The notes beneath the pieces were generated by a model. That model worked only from the letters and a program-made list of their open reading frames with translations. It was not told the DNA's origin and ran no database searches. From Thiotrichaceae bacterium (GTDB taxonomy: Bacteria > Pseudomonadota > Gammaproteobacteria > Thiotrichales > Thiotrichaceae): DNA of 44,524 nucleotides. The DNA lies in contig WFWY01000001.1 of assembly GCA_015490895.1 (NCBI GenBank), forward strand, positions 1 to 44,524, given 5' to 3'. Position numbers and translations under genes: made by a program. Positions 18,417 through 33,867 of this stretch are shown one piece after another (the stretch's first letter is position 1; each line of letters starts with the position of its first letter).

Positions 18417-18445
18417 TTGACACGCCAGGCAGAGTCACGTACTTT
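18417..18445 (+). promoter_or_regulatory. Promoter of the B12 riboswitch / btuB unit
   Basis: Perfect TTGACA (18417-18422) with a 17-nt spacer to TACTTT (18440-18445). Transcription would begin about 18452, right at the 5' edge of the riboswitch. Confidence 0.7.
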
Positions 18446-18450
18446 CCCCC

Positions 18451-18662
18451 TTCGTTTTCAGGTGCATGGACTGTTCTCTCGGATAACCCCCCGGATGGTG
18501 CATGGTAAACGGGAAGCTGGTGCGCTGTTGAATACTGTTTGGCAGCAATTCCAGCACTGCCCCCGCAACGGTAAGTGAGTAAAAGCTTGATTAATGCCAC
18601 TGTGTCGACTGACATGGGAAGGCCAGGTGAAATATATCTCACAAGTCCGGATACCGGCCTGA
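18451..18662 (+). promoter_or_regulatory. Cobalamin (B12) riboswitch
   Basis: Conserved blocks of the cobalamin aptamer appear in order. They are TCAGGTGC near 18458, AAACGGGAAGCTGGTGC near 18507-18523, AATTCCAGCACTGCCCCCGC ending at the B12 box CCCCCGCAACGGTAAG, GCCACTG (18596-18602), TGGGAAGGC (18615-18623) and AAGTCCGGATACCGGCCTGA (18643-18662). Adenosylcobalamin binding is expected to lower btuB expression. A hairpin CTACGC-GGTGG-GCGTAG (18685-18701) follows, just before the AGGAG of btuB (ATG 18717), and may be part of the expression platform acting on translation. No T-run terminator is seen. Confidence 0.95.
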
Positions 18663-18716
18663 AATTTCTTTCTATATCTATTATCTACGCGGTGGGCGTA
18701 GTAACAGGAGTTAAAC

Positions 18717-20531
18717 ATGCATGCAATGATACGCAAGGGTGCGTTCAGTACCCTCATTCCCTTTTTATTTATTTCCCCTCTGGTTATGGCAGATAGTGTG
18801 ACGGAGACTGAAGCGACTGAACTGGATGAGGTCGTGGTTGCAGCGACACGAACAGCACAGACAGTTGATGAAACCCTGGCGGCAACCACAATTATTACGC
18901 GTAAAGATATCGAACGGTCGCAGGCTACGTCGATCGTTGATGTATTAAGAAGTCAAGCCGTAGGTGTGGATTTTACGATTTCCGGTGGTGCGGGTAAAAT
19001 CTCCAGTCTACACCTGCGTGGTACGGAGTCTGATCATGTTCTGGTTTTGATTGACGGTGTTCGTGCAGGCTCTGTGACTACCGGTGCCATGTCCTGGTCT
19101 TTATTACCAGCAGATATGATTGAACGCATTGAGATTGTTCGTGGGCCACGTTCTTCTTTGTATGGTTCCGAGGCGATAGGTGGTATTGTTAGCATTACGA
19201 CACGCCAGGGTAAAACGGGTACATGGCAGGGTTCTGTAGGGCTGGGGAGCTTCAATACCCGCAAATTGTCACTCGGTACTTCACTGGGTAACAAACAGAC
19301 ACGAGCGAGTGTGAATGTTGCATACACGGATACGGATGGTATTGATGCCAGAGTAAGCAACAACCCTGATAAAGATGGTTATGATAACAAAAGCATGAAT
19401 GTGCGTTTGCAGCATAAACTATCTGGGCGTACTGAGGTGGCATTGTCCGCTTTTTATGGTGAAGGTCAAAATGAGTACGATGACTTTGGTGACGACACGC
19501 GTTCATCCTACAATGAATTTGTACAGCAAAATACCGGCCTGAGCCTGAAGTCAGCACTTTCTGAACATTGGAACACCCGGCTTGAACTCGGTGAATACCG
19601 TGACAAAACTCGTGCCTTTGATGGTTTTCCTGGTTTTTTTAACAGTAAACGACAACAAATAAACTGGCAAAATGATGTCGCATGGGGTGCGGAGTCCTTG
19701 TTGACCCTCGGTATAGATCACCAGCGTGATAGTGTTGATAGTTCCACTGCCTATGCAGAAACAGGTAGAAATAATACCGGCTATTTTGCAGAGTATCAGA
19801 CCCGAATGCGTTCGCATGATGTGCAGATATCACTGCGTAATGATGATAATGATGCGTTTGGTAATCATACGACAGGCGGTATTAGTGTCGGTCGTGACCT
19901 TGGCAGGCAGAGTCGTCTCGTTGCATCGTACGGCACGGCTTTTAAAGCTCCAACACTGAATGAGCTCTATTTCCCCTTTGGGTTTGGTAATGCGACCCTT
20001 AAACCGGAAGAGTCTGCGACGTTTGAACTTGGTCTAAGGACAAAACTGGGCAGAGGACAGCTGAACGCGAATCTTTTCCGTAGCCGGATTACCAATCTGA
20101 TTGCCACGGATGCTAACTTCCAGGCACAGAATATTGAAAAAGCGAGAATAGACGGACTGGAGCTGGATTTTTCCCGCACCCTGAATCAGTTTGCCTTCAA
20201 TACCAATCTCACCTGGTTAAATCCTGAAAATCGCCTGACGGGATCACAGCTAGAAAGCCGCGTGAAGCGCACGTTTAAAGTTAGCCTGGATCGTGATTAT
20301 GGCAAATTCAGCGTGGGTGGTAGTTTACTGGCGCAAAGTAAGCGGGCCGCAGGAACCTTTAGCAGTGAAACGGCCGGTTATACGACGATTGACCTGCGTT
20401 CAGCCTATCGGCTAAACAAACATATAACGCTTCAGGCCAGTTTGAATAACCTGCTGGATAAGGATTATCAAACCAAATCCGGTTTTAATATGCCAGATCG
20501 AAATGTCATGTTTACAGTCAGCTATCAATAG
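18717..20531 (+). CDS. btuB: TonB-dependent vitamin B12 receptor BtuB
   Basis: A 604-residue outer-membrane receptor with a signal peptide (LIPFLFISPLVMA) and TonB box-like LDEVVVAATR. The plug domain has VLRSQAVGVDF, LHLRGTESDHVLVLIDGVRA and the end motif IERIEIVRGPRSSLYGSEAI. A 22-strand beta barrel with alternating hydrophobic residues follows, with GTAFKAPTLNELY and the C-terminal NLLDKDYQTKSGFNMPDRNV. It differs slightly from the usual Phe ending (…FTVSYQ). The B12 riboswitch upstream settles the substrate as cobalamin. It uses ExbB/ExbD/TonB energy; exbBD-like genes lie at 36589-37709 but need not be its partners. Confidence 0.93.
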   Translation: MHAMIRKGAFSTLIPFLFISPLVMADSVTETEATELDEVVVAATRTAQTVDETLAATTIITRKDIERSQATSIVDVLRSQAVGVDFTISGGAGKISSLHLRGTESDHVLVLIDGVRAGSVTTGAMSWSLLPADMIERIEIVRGPRSSLYGSEAIGGIVSITTRQGKTGTWQGSVGLGSFNTRKLSLGTSLGNKQTRASVNVAYTDTDGIDARVSNNPDKDGYDNKSMNVRLQHKLSGRTEVALSAFYGEGQNEYDDFGDDTRSSYNEFVQQNTGLSLKSALSEHWNTRLELGEYRDKTRAFDGFPGFFNSKRQQINWQNDVAWGAESLLTLGIDHQRDSVDSSTAYAETGRNNTGYFAEYQTRMRSHDVQISLRNDDNDAFGNHTTGGISVGRDLGRQSRLVASYGTAFKAPTLNELYFPFGFGNATLKPEESATFELGLRTKLGRGQLNANLFRSRITNLIATDANFQAQNIEKARIDGLELDFSRTLNQFAFNTNLTWLNPENRLTGSQLESRVKRTFKVSLDRDYGKFSVGGSLLAQSKRAAGTFSSETAGYTTIDLRSAYRLNKHITLQASLNNLLDKDYQTKSGFNMPDRNVMFTVSYQ

Positions 20532-20543
20532 CGCTATGCTTCT

Positions 20544-20578
20544 GTTCAGGGTGAGTGTGTGCGTTATTCACCCTGAAC
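20544..20578 (+). other. Perfect 11-bp intercistronic hairpin between btuB and btuM
   Basis: GTTCAGGGTGA (20544-20554) pairs with TCACCCTGAAC (20568-20578) over a 13-nt loop, with no T run after it. It may be a processing site, partial terminator or mRNA stabiliser that sets the btuB:btuM ratio. Confidence 0.65.
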
Positions 20579-20607
20579 TTCAGTAACAAACAGCCCGGAG
20601 CCTTATT

Positions 20608-21186
20608 ATGGACACTTCATTCTCGCTGACTCGTCAACAACAATGGGTTGTCGGTGGGTTGCTTTTACTGGTTATGGCAGTTACCCGTAGTCATATTCTC
20701 TTGAGTCATATTCAGGATGCCTCCTGGGCTATCTTCTTTCTGCTTGGATTTTATCTCCGCCAGCCATTGGGGCTGGTTGTGTTTTTGCTGGTCGCGTTTG
20801 CGATTGACCTGTTAGTCATCGAGTCCAGTGCAGGAGAAAGTTACTGTTTCACCGTGGCCTATCCATTTCTGTTACCCGCCTATACATCTCTATGGCTTGC
20901 CGGACACTGGTTTGCCAATCATTACAGGGAGGATATACGTGGGCTATTTTATTTCATAGCAGCTGCGGTTGTTGGTATAGCAGTGTGCGATATGATTGCC
21001 AGTGGTGGTTTTTACTGGTTCTCTGGTCGCTTTTCTGATGTGAATGTTGCAACCTTTGTACAGCGTTTGGCTACCTATACTCCCCTGTATATGAAGACGA
21101 CATTGCTCTATCTTGGTATCGCGGCTGTGATTCATCTGGCTGTGGTTCAGGCCGGAAGATTCAAGGCACAGACATATCACAGCTGA
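20608..21186 (+). CDS. btuM: BtuM-like inner-membrane cobalamin transporter
   Basis: A 192-residue integral membrane protein with about six hydrophobic helices and no ATPase domain. Its size and place after riboswitch-driven btuB match BtuM, the ECF S-component-like B12 transporter described in Thiobacillus denitrificans, which also removes cyanide from cyanocobalamin via Cys80. Here Cys80 is present at the exact position (ESYCFTVAY). Asp67 (AFAID), Tyr85 and Arg153 (VQRLATY) match the functional residues I recall for that protein, and a His is at 29 (TRSHILL). The gene is 76 nt after btuB across a strong hairpin and ends before a terminator. Assigned from residue positions and context, without alignment. 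Confidence 0.85.
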   Translation: MDTSFSLTRQQQWVVGGLLLLVMAVTRSHILLSHIQDASWAIFFLLGFYLRQPLGLVVFLLVAFAIDLLVIESSAGESYCFTVAYPFLLPAYTSLWLAGHWFANHYREDIRGLFYFIAAAVVGIAVCDMIASGGFYWFSGRFSDVNVATFVQRLATYTPLYMKTTLLYLGIAAVIHLAVVQAGRFKAQTYHS

Positions 21187-21330: not shown

Positions 21331-22443
21331 CTATAGCGACAGCACGCGCTGTACCAGCCACACTGAAGCCAGCATAGAAATAACGACTGAGCCACCACGT
21401 AGAATATAGGTTTGGTAGAAGACTGTTTTTCTAAGCAGGTAAGCGACAGGGAACAAAAGTAACAATAACATCCCTTGCCCAATTTCCACGCCACTGTTAA
21501 AACCCAGCAATGAGAGTAATAACGAGCCTCTCCCAAGATTCAAATCACTCAGTACACTGGCAAAACCAAAGCCATGAATGAGGCCGAACAAGAAAGCAAC
21601 ACGCCATTGAGCACGGGTAATAACCGGTTTGATATTGTTAATGGCCACGACGATCACGGACAATGCAATCACCGATTCAACCCAGCGTGAAGGCAGATTA
21701 ACCAGATTTAGCGTGGCCAGTGACAAGGTAATGGAGTGAGCTATGGTAAAGGCGGTCGTGACTTTAAAGAGGTGAATGAGTGCAGGCTTGAAATGGCTAA
21801 CAGCTTCCCACTGACTGTTCTTATAAAACAATACAGCAGGCAGCATGAGCGTAACAATAAACAGGATATGGTCAAGGCCGATCCAGATATGCCAGATGCC
21901 CTGCTGAATGAACGTAAACAGGTTTTTCAGGGGGGGCTGTGCGGTATCACCCAGTATTATCAATGGTTGGTCAGGGCTAACCACAAGTGGCTGTGCTGAT
22001 TGGCCATGACGCTGATCAATGATAATACCTCGATGATTTGCATCATCGGCAAAGAGCAATGAATAACGCAGGTTTGTTTCGCCAGTCTTGCGCTGACAAT
22101 GTGCCTGGCCAAACAGGCTGATATACAAACCATCGGCATGTTGATTGACTTTTAATGTGTTGCCCTGTAACGAACAAGGTTGCCGGTCACGTTGAATGGA
22201 CAGGTGAGAATAGGCGTAGGCGGTGATATCTGGCTGTTTAGAGGTAACTTCCTGCCATGTAATGTGTCGATCCAGGTTATTATCCAGTCCTATTACATAT
22301 TCCAGGTCACGCAGTGAAATATCCCACTGGAAATGGAGGCTATCGTCCGTACCGGACAGAAATAAATAACTACTGCTGGGCGTGTGTGCCGTGCCTGTAA
22401 CAGGAAAAATAATGAACAGTAAAGTGGTGAGTATTTTGATCAG
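21331..22443 (-). CDS. HupE/UreJ-type membrane protein, non-canonical start
   Basis: The first canonical start is TTG at 22128, but the same frame is open to 22471 and encodes a signal peptide and N-terminal domain. From CTG 22443 it reads IKILTTLLFIIFPVTGTAHT, then about 120 extracytoplasmic residues, then the HupE/UreJ_2 membrane domain. That domain has GIWHIWIGLDHILFIVTLML, TAFTIAHSITLSLATL and FLFGLIHGFGFASVL, whose His/Asp pairs probably bind metal. Total 370 residues, normal for the family. AAGGAG lies at 22452-22447. The CTG overlaps the TPR gene's TGA as CTGA. Related HupE/UreJ proteins move Ni or Co; substrate here is unproven. Confidence 0.8.
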   Translation of the reverse strand: MIKILTTLLFIIFPVTGTAHTPSSSYLFLSGTDDSLHFQWDISLRDLEYVIGLDNNLDRHITWQEVTSKQPDITAYAYSHLSIQRDRQPCSLQGNTLKVNQHADGLYISLFGQAHCQRKTGETNLRYSLLFADDANHRGIIIDQRHGQSAQPLVVSPDQPLIILGDTAQPPLKNLFTFIQQGIWHIWIGLDHILFIVTLMLPAVLFYKNSQWEAVSHFKPALIHLFKVTTAFTIAHSITLSLATLNLVNLPSRWVESVIALSVIVVAINNIKPVITRAQWRVAFLFGLIHGFGFASVLSDLNLGRGSLLLSLLGFNSGVEIGQGMLLLLLFPVAYLLRKTVFYQTYILRGGSVVISMLASVWLVQRVLSL

Positions 22444-23648
22444 AGTCTCCTTAACATCAGGTCGATTCGTTTATCCTGCAAGTTGTTTTTTTCTATCCAG
22501 TCACGAACTGTCCCGATTGCTTTAACCGAGTGATTGGCCTTTGCCGCACGTAATAAAACAAACGCATCATCAGGCTCTTTTTGTTGTTGCCAGTTTTCCA
22601 GAGCCAGCCTTAAAGCTTTTTCCCTGGCACCACCAAAATGCAATATAAACAGCGCATTGTCTTTTGCATGAGTTTTGCTGCCACGCAGCGAAACAGCGTT
22701 GTAGCGCGCGACAAGTTGTTGCTGAAAACCCTTGCTCAAACGCTCTTCACCGGCCTGCTTTGCTGCGATAGCCAGACGTAATAGCAGGGCATCATCTCGG
22801 GTTTCTTTTGACAATAGTATGAGTACTTCCCGGGGGCGTTGTCGGTAAATCAGATAGTCACTATATATACGTAACAAATAGGCATCACGAAGAGGATAAG
22901 CCAGTGCTATTTTAAAGTGCTTTTCTGCCTGTTTATAACGACCCAAACGCAAGGCAGTTTCAGCACTTAAACCGTGTATCCATTGAGACAGGGAGGCTTG
23001 CTTGTCAGCTTGTCTGGCTATTACCTGCTGTAATTGATAAGCACGTTCAGCAGAACCCGTTAAGGATAATATCTGGCTATGGCATACTTGAGAGAGCCAG
23101 CTTGCTCCTGTGTTTGCTAAAGCGGCGCAACTGGCACGTGCCGCGGAATAATTTCCCTGAACCTGCTGGATAGTCGATAAAGTGAGCCATGCCTGGGAGT
23201 GGCCTGGCTGCTGTTTTAACAGTGTTTTAAGATCCTGAGTCGCTGCATCGAAAGCATGATCATGTTGATGCAAGATAGCGCGTAAAAACAGTACCTCTAC
23301 CGGAGGGGCTGGCTGCTGCCACCAGGGTGCAAGGGTAGCTCTGGCATAACCATAGTAGCGGATATCGGTATTTTCCCGTGCAATCTGGATATAAGCGGTG
23401 GCGAGCTGTATTGCCAGCGAACTATTTTCTGGTTGTTTTTTGAGTTGTTCACGCAAGTTTCTCAGCTTATTCGTGTCATAGTCTGCCGTACCCGCTAGTG
23501 TGACTAATATTTCCTGGTCATCCACGGGTGTTCGGGGGGCAGATATTGCGCTTGTCAGGATGCAAGAGAGGCTTAAAATCAGAGTGGAAACATAGTGAAT
23601 CCACTCTGGTTTTGGCGCTTTTGTCCTGGCAGGTTGCACTGCCCGCAT
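22440..23648 (-). CDS. TPR-repeat exported protein
   Basis: A 402-residue protein with a signal peptide or anchor after a basic start (WIHYVSTLILSLSCILTSAI). Tetratricopeptide-type helical repeats follow: NSSLAIQLATAYIQIAREN, FDAATQDLKTLLKQQPGHSQ, AWLTLSTIQQVQGNYSAARA, then ALRLGRYKQAEKHFKIALAY. It is likely a periplasmic scaffold. The ATG shares a base with the stop of the lipoprotein gene (23648-23650), and its own stop overlaps the start of the HupE gene, so all three are translationally coupled. TPR proteins are also found beside DUF4331 and HupE genes in other proteobacteria, from memory. Confidence 0.8.
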   Translation of the reverse strand: MRAVQPARTKAPKPEWIHYVSTLILSLSCILTSAISAPRTPVDDQEILVTLAGTADYDTNKLRNLREQLKKQPENSSLAIQLATAYIQIARENTDIRYYGYARATLAPWWQQPAPPVEVLFLRAILHQHDHAFDAATQDLKTLLKQQPGHSQAWLTLSTIQQVQGNYSAARASCAALANTGASWLSQVCHSQILSLTGSAERAYQLQQVIARQADKQASLSQWIHGLSAETALRLGRYKQAEKHFKIALAYPLRDAYLLRIYSDYLIYRQRPREVLILLSKETRDDALLLRLAIAAKQAGEERLSKGFQQQLVARYNAVSLRGSKTHAKDNALFILHFGGAREKALRLALENWQQQKEPDDAFVLLRAAKANHSVKAIGTVRDWIEKNNLQDKRIDLMLRRL

Positions 23649-23929
23649 TAGATGCTCGCCCCAATACGACGAATCACATCTGGCAGGTTGTCATTATCTT
23701 CAATGTCTACGGGTTCCGCATCTGCTTCTCCAAACAGCCCGTTAATGTCACCTTTAAGTGACTCCGGAAGGACGCCGGGCTCTGAATCAGCGGGCTGGGC
23801 AGACAGAATACGAAGTGCGTTCTGTGGTACCGGATCCGGAGGAGGTGTTGTACCCCCTCCATTTGAGGGGTCTGTATGGCAAGCTGTCAGGCTCATAACG
23901 GTAAGCATCATCACAATTAATCGTTTCAT
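23648..23929 (-). CDS. Small lipoprotein of the DUF4331 operon
   Basis: A 93-residue protein with a type II signal peptide: KRLIVMMLTVMSLTAC, with lipobox LTAC and Cys17 as the acylated residue. The mature part is Pro/Gly-rich, then has acidic residues around GLFGEADAEPVDIEDNDNLP. No known fold is recognised. GGAG ribosome-binding site. It starts 12 nt after the DUF4331 stop and overlaps the TPR gene by one base. Probably an outer- or inner-membrane-anchored partner of the DUF4331 and TPR proteins. Confidence 0.75.
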   Translation of the reverse strand: MKRLIVMMLTVMSLTACHTDPSNGGGTTPPPDPVPQNALRILSAQPADSEPGVLPESLKGDINGLFGEADAEPVDIEDNDNLPDVIRRIGASI

Positions 23930-23941
23930 GGTAGTACTCCC

Positions 23942-25426
23942 TTATTGGCTACGTGAGCCAGATACTGGCGTGGTGAGATAAGGAAATACGTCATCAAACT
24001 GCCCGGCATTCTGTACGGCACCATCGGTATAGGCCAGTTCACCACTGGTCGCATCTTCTGGCTGACATAGGCCCAGGTTCAGGTGGCATAATGCTCCCAT
24101 AACGACGCGTAAAGCGATATCTACGACATCATCACCAGGGCGACGACCATTGGGGAAGCCTGCATTATCTCCTGCGGCAACACCCAGGTTTTTTTGCTCC
24201 TGTTTCGGAGTAGGTGCAATCCGGGTATTAAGACGTTGCATCTCTGCTACCGAACCATTGGCATTTACATTTTTCAGGCCTGTCAGGAACGCTGCAACCA
24301 GGTCAGGGCGGTTCTCAACGGTTGGTGCATTGACACCAAACAGGACGTTGAGAATGTGTGGAAGCGTGGGGTCAGTTACATAAGAGGCAAACTGGGCATC
24401 ATCCTTTGGCTCACTGGCGTTAAATGTGTTTTTGTCAGGCAGGCCGATGACGACCTCATTCACCAGAGGCATACCGAGGCGGGAAACCTGTGTCCATGCA
24501 CCACCACTCAGAGCTGGTTGTTTGAAAGTAGGGGTAGGATCAAGTACACGAACCTGGGGCAGACTGGCTGTTGTCCAGCCGCCGATAATACCGTTTTCAT
24601 TTCCACCCGTTATACACTCGATGGGTATTTCCAGTGCCAGTGTCGTGATGTTTTTGTTCTCCAGTGTGTTTGTTTCGCCATCCACGGGACCAAGTGGATG
24701 GGTATTTACCAGGTCAAATACTTCTCCAAGATTGACCGCGAAAGACTCTTTGCGTTGCCCGACAAATATACGTCCATCCTGTGAACCGGCAGGACAGGCA
24801 GTTAGCATGACCGGATGGATAAATGAACGTGCATATTCCGCATAAGGCTGGGTACTAAAGGTTTTATTACCGACATTGTCATAGGGTTTGGCAAAGGTGG
24901 TACTGCCGTCATGGGCATTCTCCACGGGAGTTTTTGTACCGGTACGGCGATCACCTTGTACCAGGGTTAAGTGGTAAGATTCCCTGAAGTTCAAGGCATC
25001 ACTGTTCTCGGTACTGACTGTGCCGATATTTTTCTGAGGGACAGCGACCCCATTAATAGTCAGGCCGTTACCCGCGTTACCCAGCTCATTGTTGAACTGG
25101 AACTGGAAAGTCAGGTCTTCTATTCCATCGCCGCTATTGTCGATATGTATTTCATACAAGGCATCGGGTGACAGGCTGAAGTAATTCGGGCCACCGTAAG
25201 CATCTTGCAGGGGGAAGTAATTGGCGATCAGGGTAACGTAATCTTCTCTGCCTGGCTCATAGCTGCGGAACATATAAAAATCTGTACCATCAACTTTAGG
25301 ATGTTCGGTAATAAAAGGCGCTTCACGATGGCTGGATGCCTGGGCAGTTGACAGGGTAGCAGTATAAAAAGCGGCCATTAGTGTACTTAAGAGTGTTTTG
25401 CAGGTTAAACGAGCTAAGGTATGCAT
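23942..25426 (-). CDS. DUF4331 secreted protein
   Basis: From ATG 25426 (GGAGG ribosome-binding site) a 494-residue protein with signal peptide (LLSTLMAAFYTATLSTAQA), cleaved before SSHREAP. DUF4331 hallmarks are ASSHREAPFITEHPKVDGTD, FYMFRSYEPGRE, LYEIHIDNSGDGIEDLTFQF and AFLTGLKN near the end, plus GFPNGRRPGDDVVDIALRVV. The DNSGDGIED segment resembles a Ca-binding loop. Function unknown; the family is widespread and exported. The frame extends upstream to 25471 but the signal peptide fits only the internal ATG. It leads the lipoprotein-TPR-HupE operon. Confidence 0.88.
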   Translation of the reverse strand: MHTLARLTCKTLLSTLMAAFYTATLSTAQASSHREAPFITEHPKVDGTDFYMFRSYEPGREDYVTLIANYFPLQDAYGGPNYFSLSPDALYEIHIDNSGDGIEDLTFQFQFNNELGNAGNGLTINGVAVPQKNIGTVSTENSDALNFRESYHLTLVQGDRRTGTKTPVENAHDGSTTFAKPYDNVGNKTFSTQPYAEYARSFIHPVMLTACPAGSQDGRIFVGQRKESFAVNLGEVFDLVNTHPLGPVDGETNTLENKNITTLALEIPIECITGGNENGIIGGWTTASLPQVRVLDPTPTFKQPALSGGAWTQVSRLGMPLVNEVVIGLPDKNTFNASEPKDDAQFASYVTDPTLPHILNVLFGVNAPTVENRPDLVAAFLTGLKNVNANGSVAEMQRLNTRIAPTPKQEQKNLGVAAGDNAGFPNGRRPGDDVVDIALRVVMGALCHLNLGLCQPEDATSGELAYTDGAVQNAGQFDDVFPYLTTPVSGSRSQ

Positions 25427-25597
25427 GGAAGTCCTCCAGTGAGTTGATTGATAACACTGGGGGATACGCACGTTGAAAAAAAAGTGGATTCATTTATTTT
25501 GAGACCCTTTGCATGAAAGGTCTTATTTTAGTGAACTGGCAGTCGTCCCTAAGCGACAGTTTAAGGCGCCTCAGAAAAACGAGTCATGACTTGATCA

Positions 25598-25781
25598 GAG
25601 GCTCCTTTAGGAGTCTCTGACTAAGTCTGAGTGGAATTTCTCGATTGATAGAATTGTTCAGTTTTTGCTTAAAAATGGAGCTAATAGTCACTCTATTAGG
25701 GAGATTTTTAGGCAAAAAATGGGCGATTCTAGCTTCGAGAAAACTGCTCACGACTTATTCAGAGGCTCCTTTAGGAGTCTC
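25598..25781. repeat. Dispersed repeat B, copy 1 (palindromic ends)
   Basis: The element is bounded by two identical 20-mers, GAGGCTCCTTTAGGAGTCTC at 25598-25617 and 25762-25781, each an imperfect palindrome. It is about 184 bp. The core has TCTGACTAAGTCTG and AATAGTCACTCTATT. A truncated tail of the same unit (GAGTCATGACTTGATCAG) precedes it at 25581-25597, so tandem partial copies are present. A diverged copy is at 41864-42037. It fills the gap between the DUF4331 and anti-sigma genes and contains no convincing gene. Confidence 0.75.
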
Positions 25782-25801
25782 TTTTGTATCTTTCAAAAGC
25801 T

Positions 25802-26296
25802 TTATACTGGTAAAGCCCCACGAATATAGGCCATGCAGCCTTGCTGGGTACTGACATTGCCATGCATACCACCAGCGGGTGCAAAATGGAAATCACCTTT
25901 GTGTAGTGTTATATCTCCGAGGGTGAGATCACCCTCCAGCATCAGGCATTCTTCATCGAAAGGGTGATTATGTCCTTGCATGCTAAAACCGGGCTCCAGT
26001 TTGATTAGATAGCTGAGGAGCCCGTCCAGCCCGTTGCCGTGGTCATGGACTATCTTGAAGTAGGCTCCCGGCATGGCTTTGACCCACTCACCTTCATTGG
26101 GACGCAGGGTTGAAAAGTTGGAGCTTGCCGGGGCTTTGCTTGCCGTCTCCTGGTGAATCATTTGCATGACACGACTACGCATGCGTTCGTGCTGTTCCGC
26201 GGGTATTGCAGCGGGCTCATGCGCTGAGGCCAGTATTTCAAGGACATCATTATCCAGTGCTGAGGTATCGACGGGTGGTTTTTTTCGCTTATCCAT
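25802..26296 (-). CDS. Cupin anti-sigma factor (ChrR-like, no N-terminal zinc motif)
   Basis: From ATG 26296 (GGAGGG ribosome-binding site) a 164-residue protein. The C-terminal cupin has YLIKLEPGFSMQGHNHPFDE, then ECLMLEGDLTLGDITLHKGD and FHFAPAGGMHGNV, with metal-type His/Glu residues (HNH...E...H). ChrR-type anti-sigma proteins hold an ECF sigma factor inactive and release it on oxidative signals. Classical ChrR has a zinc-binding HxxxCxxC in its N-terminal sigma-binding half; here that half (KRKKPPVDTSALDNDVLEIL, then ERMRSRVMQMIHQE) shows no such motif. It overlaps the sigma gene by 8 bp. Confidence 0.85.
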   Translation of the reverse strand: MDKRKKPPVDTSALDNDVLEILASAHEPAAIPAEQHERMRSRVMQMIHQETASKAPASSNFSTLRPNEGEWVKAMPGAYFKIVHDHGNGLDGLLSYLIKLEPGFSMQGHNHPFDEECLMLEGDLTLGDITLHKGDFHFAPAGGMHGNVSTQQGCMAYIRGALPV

Positions 26297-26876
26297 AAAG
26301 CCCTCCGACATTAATATCATCACTATCCAGTGCGTTTCTCAGAACCGCTTGTGCACGGCGAATATTCGATTTAACCGTTCCCAAAGGTTCTCCGGTGTAG
26401 TGTGCTATTTGCTGATGACTCATGCCCCGGTAAAAGGCCAGTGCAATGGTTTGGCGCTGGGATTTGCTTAATAGCCGTAAGGCATTAGTGATGCGGGTAG
26501 AGAGTTCGTTTTGCATCATGGAGTCCAGAGCTGTTGGTGTGGTTTCATCCAGAGTATCTTGTTGTGGGTCTTCCTGGTACTGGTTCATGGTGGCTGATTT
26601 TTCGCGCCGCAGCTTATCCAGCGCACGACTGCGACAGATCATCAGTATCCAGGCAATAGGGCTGGCTCGTTGCGGGTTATATTTATCAGCCTGCTGCCAT
26701 ACCTGCAAATACACATCACCGACAATTTCTTCGGCCAGTTCAGGCCGGTGGACAATTTTGACGGCAAGCCCATAAACTCGTCTGACAGTGGCGTCATAAA
26801 GTTGACTCATTGAGGCCTCCTGACCCGCCATAATACCTTGTAACAGTATGTGTAAAGTATCTGGACTGTCGTCCAT
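26289..26876 (-). CDS. ECF RNA polymerase sigma factor
   Basis: From ATG 26876 (GGGAG ribosome-binding site) a 195-residue ECF sigma factor. Region 2 has YDATVRRVYGLAVKIVHRPE, EEIVGDVYLQVWQQADKYNP and ASPIAWILMICRSRALDKLR. Region 4 has LSKSQRQTIALAFYRGMSHQ, QIAHYTGEPLGTVKSNIRRA. The overlap with a cupin gene identifies the cognate anti-sigma factor. It is likely autoregulated and may drive the DUF4331 operon immediately downstream. No convincing ECF-type promoter consensus could be matched upstream of both units. A frame extension to 26972 is rejected on start-site grounds. Confidence 0.92.
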   Translation of the reverse strand: MDDSPDTLHILLQGIMAGQEASMSQLYDATVRRVYGLAVKIVHRPELAEEIVGDVYLQVWQQADKYNPQRASPIAWILMICRSRALDKLRREKSATMNQYQEDPQQDTLDETTPTALDSMMQNELSTRITNALRLLSKSQRQTIALAFYRGMSHQQIAHYTGEPLGTVKSNIRRAQAVLRNALDSDDINVGGLYG

Positions 26877-27070
26877 TTGAGGCTCCCGTATACAGTAGTA
26901 GGTTGATGGTGAGTATAGTATACCGTAGTCATCCAACCTGGGGAGCCGTTCATTCTGAAAAAAGCAATGCACGGTGAGACCTTTTTGTTATCCGATGATG
27001 AGGCTACGCAGCTCTGGACATACTGGATTCAGCTTTTGTGCACTTACTTTAGTATACTAATAAGGGTAAT

Positions 27071-31778: not shown

Positions 31779-33152
31779 TTACCGGATGCTTTCTGCTTGA
31801 GCAGAGATGCTTTGACTCAACAGTACACGCGATTTTATTCTGATAGCAACTGCTAGTAGTAACAGCAAACTCCCCCAGGAAATAAATGCGGGAACCATAT
31901 CGTGACTGGCAGAAAGCTGTGCCTGGACATTAATATTCCAGTGCTTGATACCATAATCTACCAGATAGCCACTGAGTAGCGCGATACTGCCAACACCAGT
32001 GAGATAGGCCAGCAGTGAGCGGCGTCCCAATTCCTTGCCAATTACTCCCAGTGTGGAAATATTGGTGGCGGGGCCTGCCATTAAAAAAACCAGTGCAGTG
32101 CCGGGAGAGACACCAGCGAGTATCAGACCGGCAGCAATCGGGGTAGAAGCCGTCGCGCAGACATACATGGGGATGCCAACGACAAGCATGATTAACATGG
32201 CAGGCAGACCGATACCCCATTCAGCCAGAAAGCTGGCGGGCACAAAGGTTTTGATCAGTGCAGCAAATACTAAACCGACAACCAGCCACATGAATACATT
32301 ATCCAGTAAATCGGTAAATGAGTAGTGAATGCCACGCCAGGCTTTTGCAAAGAGGCCTGTTTTACCGCTCGTATCTCCCGTCGATTCTGTACTGCAGCAG
32401 GTAGCATTGCTCTCTATCGCGCTCTCTGTTGTACAGCAGGTGTTGTTGTTCTCTTGCAGCGTATTTTTGGTGCTATAAGTGTCTGTTTTACGGGTAGCAT
32501 TATTAGCTTCTGCTGTGTCACAGCAATGGGTTTCGGGTGCTCTTTTTTTGTCTCTCACTATGCTGCTTGTTACCACGTTGTCACGGGTGATACAGCTTGC
32601 AGTTGCGGAGTGAGCAGATTCGGTTTTGTCATTGCCACAACAACTTTCTGTTTTTTCAGGCCGGGCGACTTCCTTTTCATTGTTGCTGGCACAGCAACTG
32701 GCCGTTTCGGGCTCTTTATCGGGCAGGATGCCGGATGTAGATTCCGTCTGTCTGCCAACAAGCAAACCTGCTGTTAATGCTGAAGCAATGGCGGCTACAG
32801 GGCGTACTATCGCCATAAAAGGGCCGAGCAGTGCATACGAAATACTGACAGAGTCAACGCCAGTTTCCGGGGTTGAGACCAGGAACGAAACAGTAGATGC
32901 TTTTGAGGCTCCCGCACGGCGTAGACCTAGTGCTACCGGTATAACACCGCAGGAGCAGAGAGGTAACGGCGCACCAAACAGAGCGGCTTTGACAATAGGC
33001 ACAAGACCATGCCCGCTGAGGTGGTGTTGTAAAAAATCTGCGGGAATCCAGGCTTTGATTAAGCCACCAATAATAAGTCCCAGTACCAGCCAGGGGGCGG
33101 CATCAAGACTAAGATCGAGTAAGTTTTCCAGTAATAGCGGCATTGTTGTCAT
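31779..33152 (-). CDS. Cu/Zn-type permease (SO_0444/DUF318 family) with Cys-rich loop
   Basis: From ATG 33152 a 457-residue inner-membrane permease in two halves. The first has the motif APLPLCSCGVIPVALGLRRA, then GASKASTVSFLVSTPETGVD; the second has ASTPIAAGLILAGVSP and LVFLMAGPATNISTLGVIGK. They match the SO_0444 metal-efflux / ArsP-like permeases. A loop of about 135 residues between them holds five CC pairs plus His, which could bind thiophilic metal ions. Starts at 33143 and 33179 (overlapping the upstream gene by 17 bp) are also possible; none has a good ribosome-binding site. Confidence 0.87.
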   Translation of the reverse strand: MTTMPLLLENLLDLSLDAAPWLVLGLIIGGLIKAWIPADFLQHHLSGHGLVPIVKAALFGAPLPLCSCGVIPVALGLRRAGASKASTVSFLVSTPETGVDSVSISYALLGPFMAIVRPVAAIASALTAGLLVGRQTESTSGILPDKEPETASCCASNNEKEVARPEKTESCCGNDKTESAHSATASCITRDNVVTSSIVRDKKRAPETHCCDTAEANNATRKTDTYSTKNTLQENNNTCCTTESAIESNATCCSTESTGDTSGKTGLFAKAWRGIHYSFTDLLDNVFMWLVVGLVFAALIKTFVPASFLAEWGIGLPAMLIMLVVGIPMYVCATASTPIAAGLILAGVSPGTALVFLMAGPATNISTLGVIGKELGRRSLLAYLTGVGSIALLSGYLVDYGIKHWNINVQAQLSASHDMVPAFISWGSLLLLLAVAIRIKSRVLLSQSISAQAESIR

Positions 33153-33162
33153 TGTGTTTACG

Positions 33163-33867
33163 TTAGTCGGAGGTATCATCCATCAGGTTTAGGTAGTCGA
33201 TATAGCCTTGTATGAAAACCAGGTTTTCTGCGGCACCGGCAATAGCCTGTGGTGGTGAATTCAGCGTGTTTAGTAAATCTTCGCCTTCACGAATAATCAG
33301 TGTTAACTGGTTTTCATCAAACAGTTGAACCGCTGCAGCCAATTCTTCTTTTTCGGCTGAAAGTAATGTTGGTACCAGTTCATCTTTATGAATAACTGAA
33401 TCGGGGTCAAGCAAATCAGCGACCAGTTTATTTTCCAGCATCAAAAAGTGTGCGTCGCGGGCGGCTTCCTCCTGATCCAGTTCCTTATGTGCCTGAACAT
33501 CGGTACCTGCACCCTTTCGTACAGAAGTCATAATGACTTTTAGTAGTTGTCTGATAGCTTGTTTTGTTTCACGTTGGTCATCGGCAATAATACTGGCACG
33601 TTCATAGAGTTTATCAAGTTTATCTTTCAACTTGAGAATAACATCACTATCTTCGTTGGGTTTTAGCTGAATGGTTTGCTCAATGATGCCCTGGAAATCT
33701 TTATGGAAATCCAGTAGTACTTGATGATCTTTTTCCTGTACGTCCAGCATGGTTTGCTGATTGCGGGTGAGTTGGCGGCTGCCAAACAGCGGGTTGTTGT
33801 GTTTTCTATTCAGGTGCCGCTCGTGCGCTCCAGGGTTGTCACTGGGTTGCAAAATAAAATCATTCAT
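33163..33867 (-). CDS. Conserved helical protein, function unknown
   Basis: From ATG 33867 (AAGGAA ribosome-binding site) a 234-residue protein without signal peptide or membrane segments. It starts MNDFILQPSDNPGAHERHLN, then is almost entirely charged helix (DVILKLKDKLDKLYERASII, DDQRETKQAIRQLLKVIMTS) with no cysteine and no motif I can name. It precedes the metal permease gene by a few nt and is probably co-transcribed with it. A cytoplasmic partner or regulator is a guess. An upstream extension to 33930 lacks start support. Confidence 0.7.
   Translation of the reverse strand: MNDFILQPSDNPGAHERHLNRKHNNPLFGSRQLTRNQQTMLDVQEKDHQVLLDFHKDFQGIIEQTIQLKPNEDSDVILKLKDKLDKLYERASIIADDQRETKQAIRQLLKVIMTSVRKGAGTDVQAHKELDQEEAARDAHFLMLENKLVADLLDPDSVIHKDELVPTLLSAEKEELAAAVQLFDENQLTLIIREGEDLLNTLNSPPQAIAGAAENLVFIQGYIDYLNLMDDTSD

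Follow-up and report, generated by a model that had tools for sequence, protein, structure and literature searches.

What does DUF4331, a highly conserved family of exported proteins, do in a locus that also encodes a sigma factor of the extracytoplasmic function (ECF) type and a metal permease? The question is raised by six minus-strand genes at positions 21331-26876 of a 44,524-nt stretch from a Thiotrichaceae bacterium (assembly GCA_015490895.1, contig WFWY01000001.1, positions 1 to 44,524), which as a whole is called the window here. A first-pass annotation had listed a sigma switch, an exported DUF4331 protein, a lipoprotein, a periplasmic tetratricopeptide repeat (TPR) protein and a metal-type permease, and all six genes were found at the place and on the strand given, five of them with domains confirmed by profile search. 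Our reading, to which we give slightly less than an even chance, is that the locus encodes a dedicated envelope system for the capture of a transition metal, under its own ECF sigma factor. We infer that the metal is probably Cu2+ or Ni2+, and infer likewise the function of DUF4331 and the direction of transport, with uptake slightly favoured over removal. The anglerase (a recently described type of metal-binding protein) and the ECF/anti-sigma pair are known parts; what is new is the shared ECF-type promoter, the assignment of the permease as an anglerase and the (S/A)-S-His start of DUF4331.

The evidence for a metal comes first from the HupE/UreJ-2 permease (21331-22443; PF13795, 150.4 bits against a cut-off of 24.5), which has an N-terminal Ang-1 domain and an inferred CTG start. 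Its likely start lacks ATG, GTG or TTG: the frame runs past the TTG chosen by the open reading frame (ORF) finder up to a CTG at 22443 behind AAGGAG, and a signal peptide appears when the gene is read from there. Because a relative of the same genus has ATG at the matching codon and an identical M-I-K start, CTG 22443 is the probable start, or else one base of the assembly is wrong. The predicted mature N-terminus is His in 49/49 aligned copies, preceded by Ala in 45 of the 49 (cleavage read from the sequence). Anglerases, which Franco Cairo et al. described in October 2025 (PMC12537917; PDB 9GCE; here and below, cited papers are represented by excerpts), are marked by a mature N-terminal His. 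In that work a Rhodobacteraceae HupE/UreJ-2 Ang-1 bound Cu2+ with a dissociation constant of 73.6 nM and Ni2+ with one of 220 nM, with His1 as a ligand. Cu2+ had the strongest stabilising effect on this characterised Ang-1, Ni2+ came second, and Co2+ destabilised it slightly (PMC12537917).

By sequence, the window's Ang domain matched the PDB only weakly, with EF-hand, TPR-type and other rows (E 0.0005 at best), so its identity as Ang-1 was settled by fold search; the full permease had no match in the PDB by sequence. The AlphaFold model of the domain (21916-22386, mature His1 first, placed by alignment and fold match) has a predicted local distance difference test score (pLDDT) of 92, and it matched Cu-bound Ang-1 9GCE with Z 12.4 and a root-mean-square deviation of 2.9 over 132 residues, both from residue 1, at 9 % identity. 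Zinc-bound ZrgA (8F1B) and PA4063 (7AMX) were matched with Z 9.6-10.6 (11-13 % identity) and unrelated rows with 6.6; in Foldseek, ZrgA (E 1.2e-6) stood just above 9GCE (E 1.8e-6). The permease alignment held 38 of 44 references and the window sequence, four with a wrongly found start and two near-copies being left out. The Ang-1 domain contains a nearly invariant cysteine pair and an EF-hand-like loop (22249-22284) in which D35 and E46 are invariant and D39 nearly so (39 sequences). HupE/UreJ nickel permeases carry the signatures H-x5-D-H and FHGx[AV]HGxE. The first is present in the membrane domain of the window permease (21868-21891), with H185 kept in 47/48 sequences and D191 and H192 in 48/48; the second is absent, the window stretch reading GLIHGFGFAS. 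By sequence and fold, the permease is filed as an Ang-1 anglerase with predicted metal binding, and the earlier description of it as metal-type is supported and sharpened by His1 and the 9GCE match.

The second line of evidence is the start of DUF4331 itself (23942-25426, 494 aa including the signal peptide; PF14224, 482.7 bits, cut-off 27). In all 81 copies examined from the named loci (S/A)SHR lies behind the signal peptide, 75 times in exact form and six times as a variant, and four distant copies also have the (S/A)SH start. A second count gave 79/81 because two copies, both belonging to the 75 exact ones, had been given an over-long start that shifted the motif out of the range examined. 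In the window SSHREAP directly follows a signal-peptidase-like AxA site judged by eye, so that the Ser-Ser-His codons (25328-25336) would form the predicted mature N-terminus. A free X-X-His N-terminus is the amino-terminal Cu2+- and Ni2+-binding (ATCUN) motif, and the mature start of DUF4331 is accordingly described here as ATCUN-like, with binding predicted. The (S/A)SH stands out because of its place directly behind the AxA site, not by conservation alone. The DUF4331 alignment held 64 of 75 references and the window sequence. The DUF4331 model (pLDDT 90 overall) gave no Foldseek match at E 0.001 and the protein no match in a PDB sequence search; an antibody-type fold was considered and rejected, VIA-align giving only rows with Z of at most 5.5, read as a common beta arrangement. 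Calcium was likewise set aside as the main metal, the EF-hand-like loop of the permease and the DNSGDG of DUF4331 being kept only as a structural remark. In one open-licence library, where a single paper deals with anglerases, we found no paper that names DUF4331 or PF14224, and none that describes the assembly or any role of DUF4331, the lipoprotein and the TPR protein.

Does the set belong together beyond this genome? DUF4331 is present in 16 of 57 related genomes and, in an even sample of the phylum, in 17 of 299 (window genome included in both). Among the 12 further genomes of the even sample with full-length DUF4331, HupE adjoined it in 10, a TPR gene in 10, a sigma gene with an RskA-type anti-sigma gene in 10 and an ORF with a lipobox in all 12; the TPR and sigma counts are partly so by construction, as both profiles were seeded from loci including six plasmid loci. 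An independent Pfam search agreed on HupE beside DUF4331 in 10/12, and no more than 65 of the 299 genomes (window genome included) have a HupE_UreJ_2 match above cut-off, so the adjacency is not background. In the best 80 named loci we counted TPR in 53, HupE in 51, both in 49, a sigma gene in 52 (with RskA in 35, with cupin in 15) and at least one of sigma, TPR and HupE in 70; a regular expression found a lipobox ORF behind DUF4331 in 69. DUF4331, TPR and HupE are consecutive on one strand in 41 of the 72 loci with 4 kb downstream, the TPR and HupE genes mostly overlapping by 4 nt. The nearest named relatives by DUF4331 among the matches listed are Thiotrichaceae, Cocleimonas, Leucothrix and Thiothrix, and these matches also include Gamma-, Beta- and Alphaproteobacteria, Corallococcus and metagenome-assembled genomes labelled Acidobacteria, Planctomycetota and Saprospiraceae. 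Annotated plasmids extend DUF4331 to Actinomycetota and Bacteroidota, again with DUF4331 and TPR adjoining, and a single scan confirmed at least 573 places for the family. The set's presence in other genomes rules out a chance arrangement, and the neighbourhood survey removes an earlier worry that DUF4331-TPR-HupE might not be found elsewhere.

Control by a dedicated sigma factor is suggested by a shared promoter. The window holds exactly two TGAATCC-N15-18-CGTA sites, where 0.03 are expected, and 0/100 shuffles contained two; both are on the minus strand, one with N16 at 27005-27031, 128 nt upstream of the sigma ATG, and one with N17 at 25465-25492, 38 nt upstream of the DUF4331 ATG. A search for spaced word pairs without presets placed ATCC, CATC or GCAT with CGTA at the top of the list upstream of DUF4331 and sigma genes, and the top pairs hold in loci with cupin, with RskA and without a nearby sigma pair. 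For counting, 103 of 110 loci were used, repeats sharing a DUF4331 tail being dropped. [AC]ATCC-N16/17-CGTA precedes DUF4331 in 50/103 loci (16/21 with cupin, 18/44 with RskA, 16/38 with no pair nearby) and the sigma gene in 12/21 (cupin) and 13/44 (RskA), compared with 12/935 sense and 27/935 antisense for control ORFs of the same loci; the motif was derived from the same data, so these counts are not independent tests, and the gap to the controls is large. Antisense occurrences upstream of DUF4331 numbered 4 (cupin), 5 (RskA) and 0 (no pair), and upstream of sigma 2 and 5. The control ORFs were picked mechanically (at least 150 aa) and may include non-genes, hence a further control by dinucleotide shuffles of the same upstream regions, which gave a mean of 0.08-0.20 motif-bearing sequences per group and a maximum of 2, against 12-18 observed.

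Single matches to this promoter prove nothing, given the many chance matches in relatives: for TGAATCY-N16/17-CGTA in 11 of them, the reversed control equals or exceeds the motif in several (1 motif against 9 in G010, 11 against 11 in G016). The window genome has 7 exact matches and 0 for the control; two are those of the locus, two lie before plausible genes, and the other three, inside or abutting other genes, are probably chance matches. In loci L159-L228, 26 of 73 motif places are intergenic and 20-220 nt before an ORF. The published consensus of a ChrR-linked sigma factor is TGATCC-N16-CGTA (PMC5507510), and Shewanella RpoE2 has -35 TGATCC and -10 CGTAAT (PMC4336711). Recurrence of the set, together with an ECF-type promoter common to the sigma gene and DUF4331, supports at the level of sequence the earlier suggestion of an exported set with, probably, its own sigma factor.

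What kind of switch would this be? The ECF sigma factor (26289-26876, 195 aa; PF04542, 55.2 bits, cut-off 24; PF08281) overlaps by 8 nt the gene of a ChrR-like cupin, its presumed anti-sigma factor (25802-26296, 164 aa, without CxxC; PF12973, 44.1 bits, cut-off 27). The best NCBIfam matches of the sigma factor, PRK12519 and the SigK subfamily, are both under cut-off (SigK 141.5 bits against 226), and the cupin scored 17.5 bits for NCBIfam ChrR (cut-off 300). H109, H111, E115 and H145 (window numbering), which we take to be residues of the kind that hold metal in cupins, are kept in 20/20 cupin partners. ChrR anti-sigma factors have a zinc-finger CxxC in the N-terminal domain, and this was found in 0/20 partners; the window cupin is thus classed, from its sequence, as ChrR-like, failing the CxxC feature. 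The first-pass label of an oxidative-type switch stands in part: the promoter is one added base away from the RpoE-ChrR type and the metal residues are kept, and the CxxC part of the likeness falls away in all 20 partners. Elsewhere an RskA-type anti-sigma gene adjoins 35 of the 52 sigma genes in the best 80 named loci. In a sigma tree (70 rows, 64 different) cupin- and RskA-linked sequences lie mostly apart, with 2 changes each against 18.8-18.9 when shuffled; four long-branched cupin rows fall on the RskA side, and neither group is shown as one clade. From this split, two kinds of switch appear to govern the same operon.

How the parts might act together can be outlined for the capture system. 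A cupin with kept metal residues would hold the sigma factor until a metal or oxidative signal frees it, and the sigma factor would then read TGAATCC-N16/17-CGTA at the sites observed before its own gene and the DUF4331 operon. Exported DUF4331, its signal peptide removed, would start with the observed X-X-His and could chelate Cu2+ or Ni2+ with it. The lipoprotein and the TPR protein, which co-occur with it, would keep it at the envelope through presumed contact, and the HupE anglerase would take the metal by its N-terminal His and move it via its His-bearing membrane domain, as its domain and residues suggest. A bolder form is a phylum-spanning protein metallophore: DUF4331 as an ATCUN bait at or beyond the surface, docked by the D-x-EP lipoprotein and the TPR protein, would yield its metal to the His1 anglerase, with sigma held by a metal-sensing cupin (by RskA in sister lineages). 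We regard this full scheme as conceivable and rather doubtful.

Several observations weigh against metal capture as we read it. Of the 57 loci that extend 6 kb to either side of DUF4331, 8 have neither sigma nor TPR nor HupE, and the control ORFs carry the promoter motif oftener antisense than sense (27 against 12 of 935). There are 99 invariant columns in 19 diverse DUF4331 sequences, so an invariant start alone is no proof of metal binding, and the DUF4331 model is uncertain at just residues 1-10 (pLDDT 54). Zinc may be the metal, since the modelled fold of the Ang-1 domain is shared by ZrgA and PA4063. Finally, the genes of relatives under the same promoter type fit copper or redox stress rather than supply.

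This last point leads to a metal defence: copper or redox stress at the envelope would make the sigma factor induce exported chelators, with DUF4331 sequestering surplus metal outside the cytoplasm and HupE buffering or removing it. We consider this possible and less probable than not. The promoter is ECF11-like, and within the family the same type precedes genes for an HvfA-family peptide, an exported MsrA-thioredoxin, DUF255 (two genomes) and P460-type cytochromes (three genomes), one each of the DUF255 and P460-type identifications being domain-tested. Bufferins, relatives of HvfA, aid growth under copper stress (PMC12452194), and a HupE/UreJ gene is upregulated in Sphingobium when nickel is in excess (PMC5557971). 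The permease of the Streptomyces locus resembles the efflux subfamily PRK10019 (125 bits, below the cut-off of 195). HupE relatives are, however, described as uptake permeases (PMC12537917), and the HvfA link is uncertain. The peptide scored 43 bits in a same-genus relative and 19.3 bits in the window genome (cut-off 19.5). In several family genomes [AC]ATC[CT]-N16/17-CGTA precedes genes of the HvfA, bufferin-like and MNIO kinds (L269, L271, L273, L295, L296, L297, L305), hinting at ECF control of HvfA/bufferin-type peptides. Because related motifs precede these other bufferin-type and MNIO genes, and because there are several sigma-70 region-2 genes (14 matches in the window genome, 13 over cut-off), the assignment of HvfA to this sigma factor is uncertain, and the promoter in front of it may be that of a different ECF factor.

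Two loci encode small exported EGKCG peptides of the HvfA metallophore type downstream of a TGAATCC-CGTA promoter: L157:7395-7604, in the window genome (C79), and L195:1056-1355, in the same genus. An exported DUF255/thioredoxin-like gene with the same promoter lies at L158:4432-6030 (window genome) and in L160 (G005); in the window genome an alpha/beta hydrolase gene follows the DUF255-like gene, and related hydrolase genes with the motif occur in G022 and G004. A further sign of a metal role is the Streptomyces locus itself, whose permease slot is taken by a nickel transporter of the NicO type; its mature form probably starts with His, it contains an EF-hand-like loop, and a fasciclin gene follows it. 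On the Streptomyces anulatus plasmid (L266:8014-9660) this transporter, in the anglerase position, also has a His-rich loop.

If the system captures metal, is that metal nickel for hydrogenase? The window genome has a NiFe hydrogenase gene and a T2SSL gene of type II secretion, so nickel use and export are possible. As metal context for the capture reading in general, DUF4198 genes recur near DUF4331 in the fetched flanks of 10/86 loci and TonB receptor genes in those of 9/86 (one member of each domain-tested); an ABC-transporter ATPase family recurring in 10 of the loci was set aside as generic. One DUF4198 member elsewhere binds Ni2+, and DUF4198 is among the named neighbours of Ang-1 HupE/UreJ-2, whose commonest gene neighbours are of unknown function (PMC12537917). 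Against the idea of the set as a Ni2+ source for NiFe enzymes, we noticed no gene of a Ni enzyme among those that recur nearby, and hydrogenase and cassette are on different contigs; we consider it improbable.

Cobalt supply for vitamin B12, raised by the first-pass annotation from the position of the locus, is not supported and is less probable still. A cobalamin riboswitch, a BtuB-like gene (TIGR01779, 522.5 bits, below the cut-off of 599.7) and the gene of a 192-aa hydrophobic protein without Pfam match do converge on the set at 18443-21186, as had been noted, and by appearance this is ordinary B12 uptake. Across 113 DUF4331 loci, BtuB gave only weak matches in 5 (best 83 bits) and the 192-aa gene none. 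BtuB is thus no recurring neighbour, and the characterised Ang-1, slightly destabilised by Co2+, prefers Cu2+ and then Ni2+ (PMC12537917).

DUF4331 might instead be a secreted surface protein or an oxidative-stress enzyme, with TPR and HupE serving its folding or metalation. It adjoins type II secretion (gsp) genes in six alphaproteobacterial loci (L018, L020, L021, L107, L109, L138), five of them without adjacent TPR/HupE, and the promoter is of the oxidative type. Elsewhere, however, DUF4331 is usually partnered by a metal permease, and it starts with X-X-His; this reading is in our estimate unlikely. Several of the gsp-adjoining loci have a prepilin peptidase gene directly upstream.

The lipoprotein (23648-23929, 93 aa, two D-x-EP motifs, lipobox by eye) gave no match in Pfam and NCBIfam profile searches, and the TPR protein (22440-23648, 402 aa; PF14559, 36.6 bits, cut-off 25) has an apparent signal peptide. 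As the first-pass annotation had it, the last three genes overlap, lipoprotein with TPR by 1 nt and TPR with HupE by 4 nt, and the first of them begins 12 nt after DUF4331. The 375-nt gap between the cupin and DUF4331 genes holds two 43-nt direct repeats (25576-25618 and 25740-25782); their 24-nt core occurs at five places in the genome at up to 2 mismatches, of which only the two in this gap are exact. Elsewhere in the window, 31779-33179 encodes a permease-like protein with a Cys-rich loop of repeated CC motifs, possibly another metal permease.

Bringing together DUF4331, a predicted metal-binding N-terminus, an anglerase and a sigma switch gives DUF4331, the lipoprotein and the TPR protein a testable job in common, and it suggests that at least some anglerases act as the membrane-side end of a capture system with several parts. 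The locus can be compared with several known systems. With RpoE-ChrR (ECF11) it shares a cupin anti-sigma candidate, a self-promoter on the sigma gene, the -10 CGTA and the ATCC core, whereas its -35 is one base longer, its cupin has no CxxC zinc finger and its targets are others. Sister loci resemble SigK-RskA (ECF19) in their RskA-type anti-sigma factor (PF10099), and SigK is among the sigma profile matches; the window partner is a cupin rather than RskA, and the SigK score is below cut-off. The copper-binding bufferin/HvfA peptides controlled by ECF factors have the same promoter type and the metal theme in common with it, but they are small modified peptides and not DUF4331, and no MNIO enzyme was noticed beside the DUF4331 set. 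ZrgA and PA4063 share the Ang-1 domain fold, yet they were solved as separate proteins and match with lower Z than 9GCE. The likeness to the Ang-1-HupE/UreJ-2 anglerase extends to the PF13795 membrane domain, the mature His1 and the Ang-1 fold. The text of PMC12537917 that we used mentions neither DUF4331 nor a lipoprotein nor tetratricopeptide and treats the permease as a unit, whereas the window permease is the end of a set that appears to be sigma-controlled.

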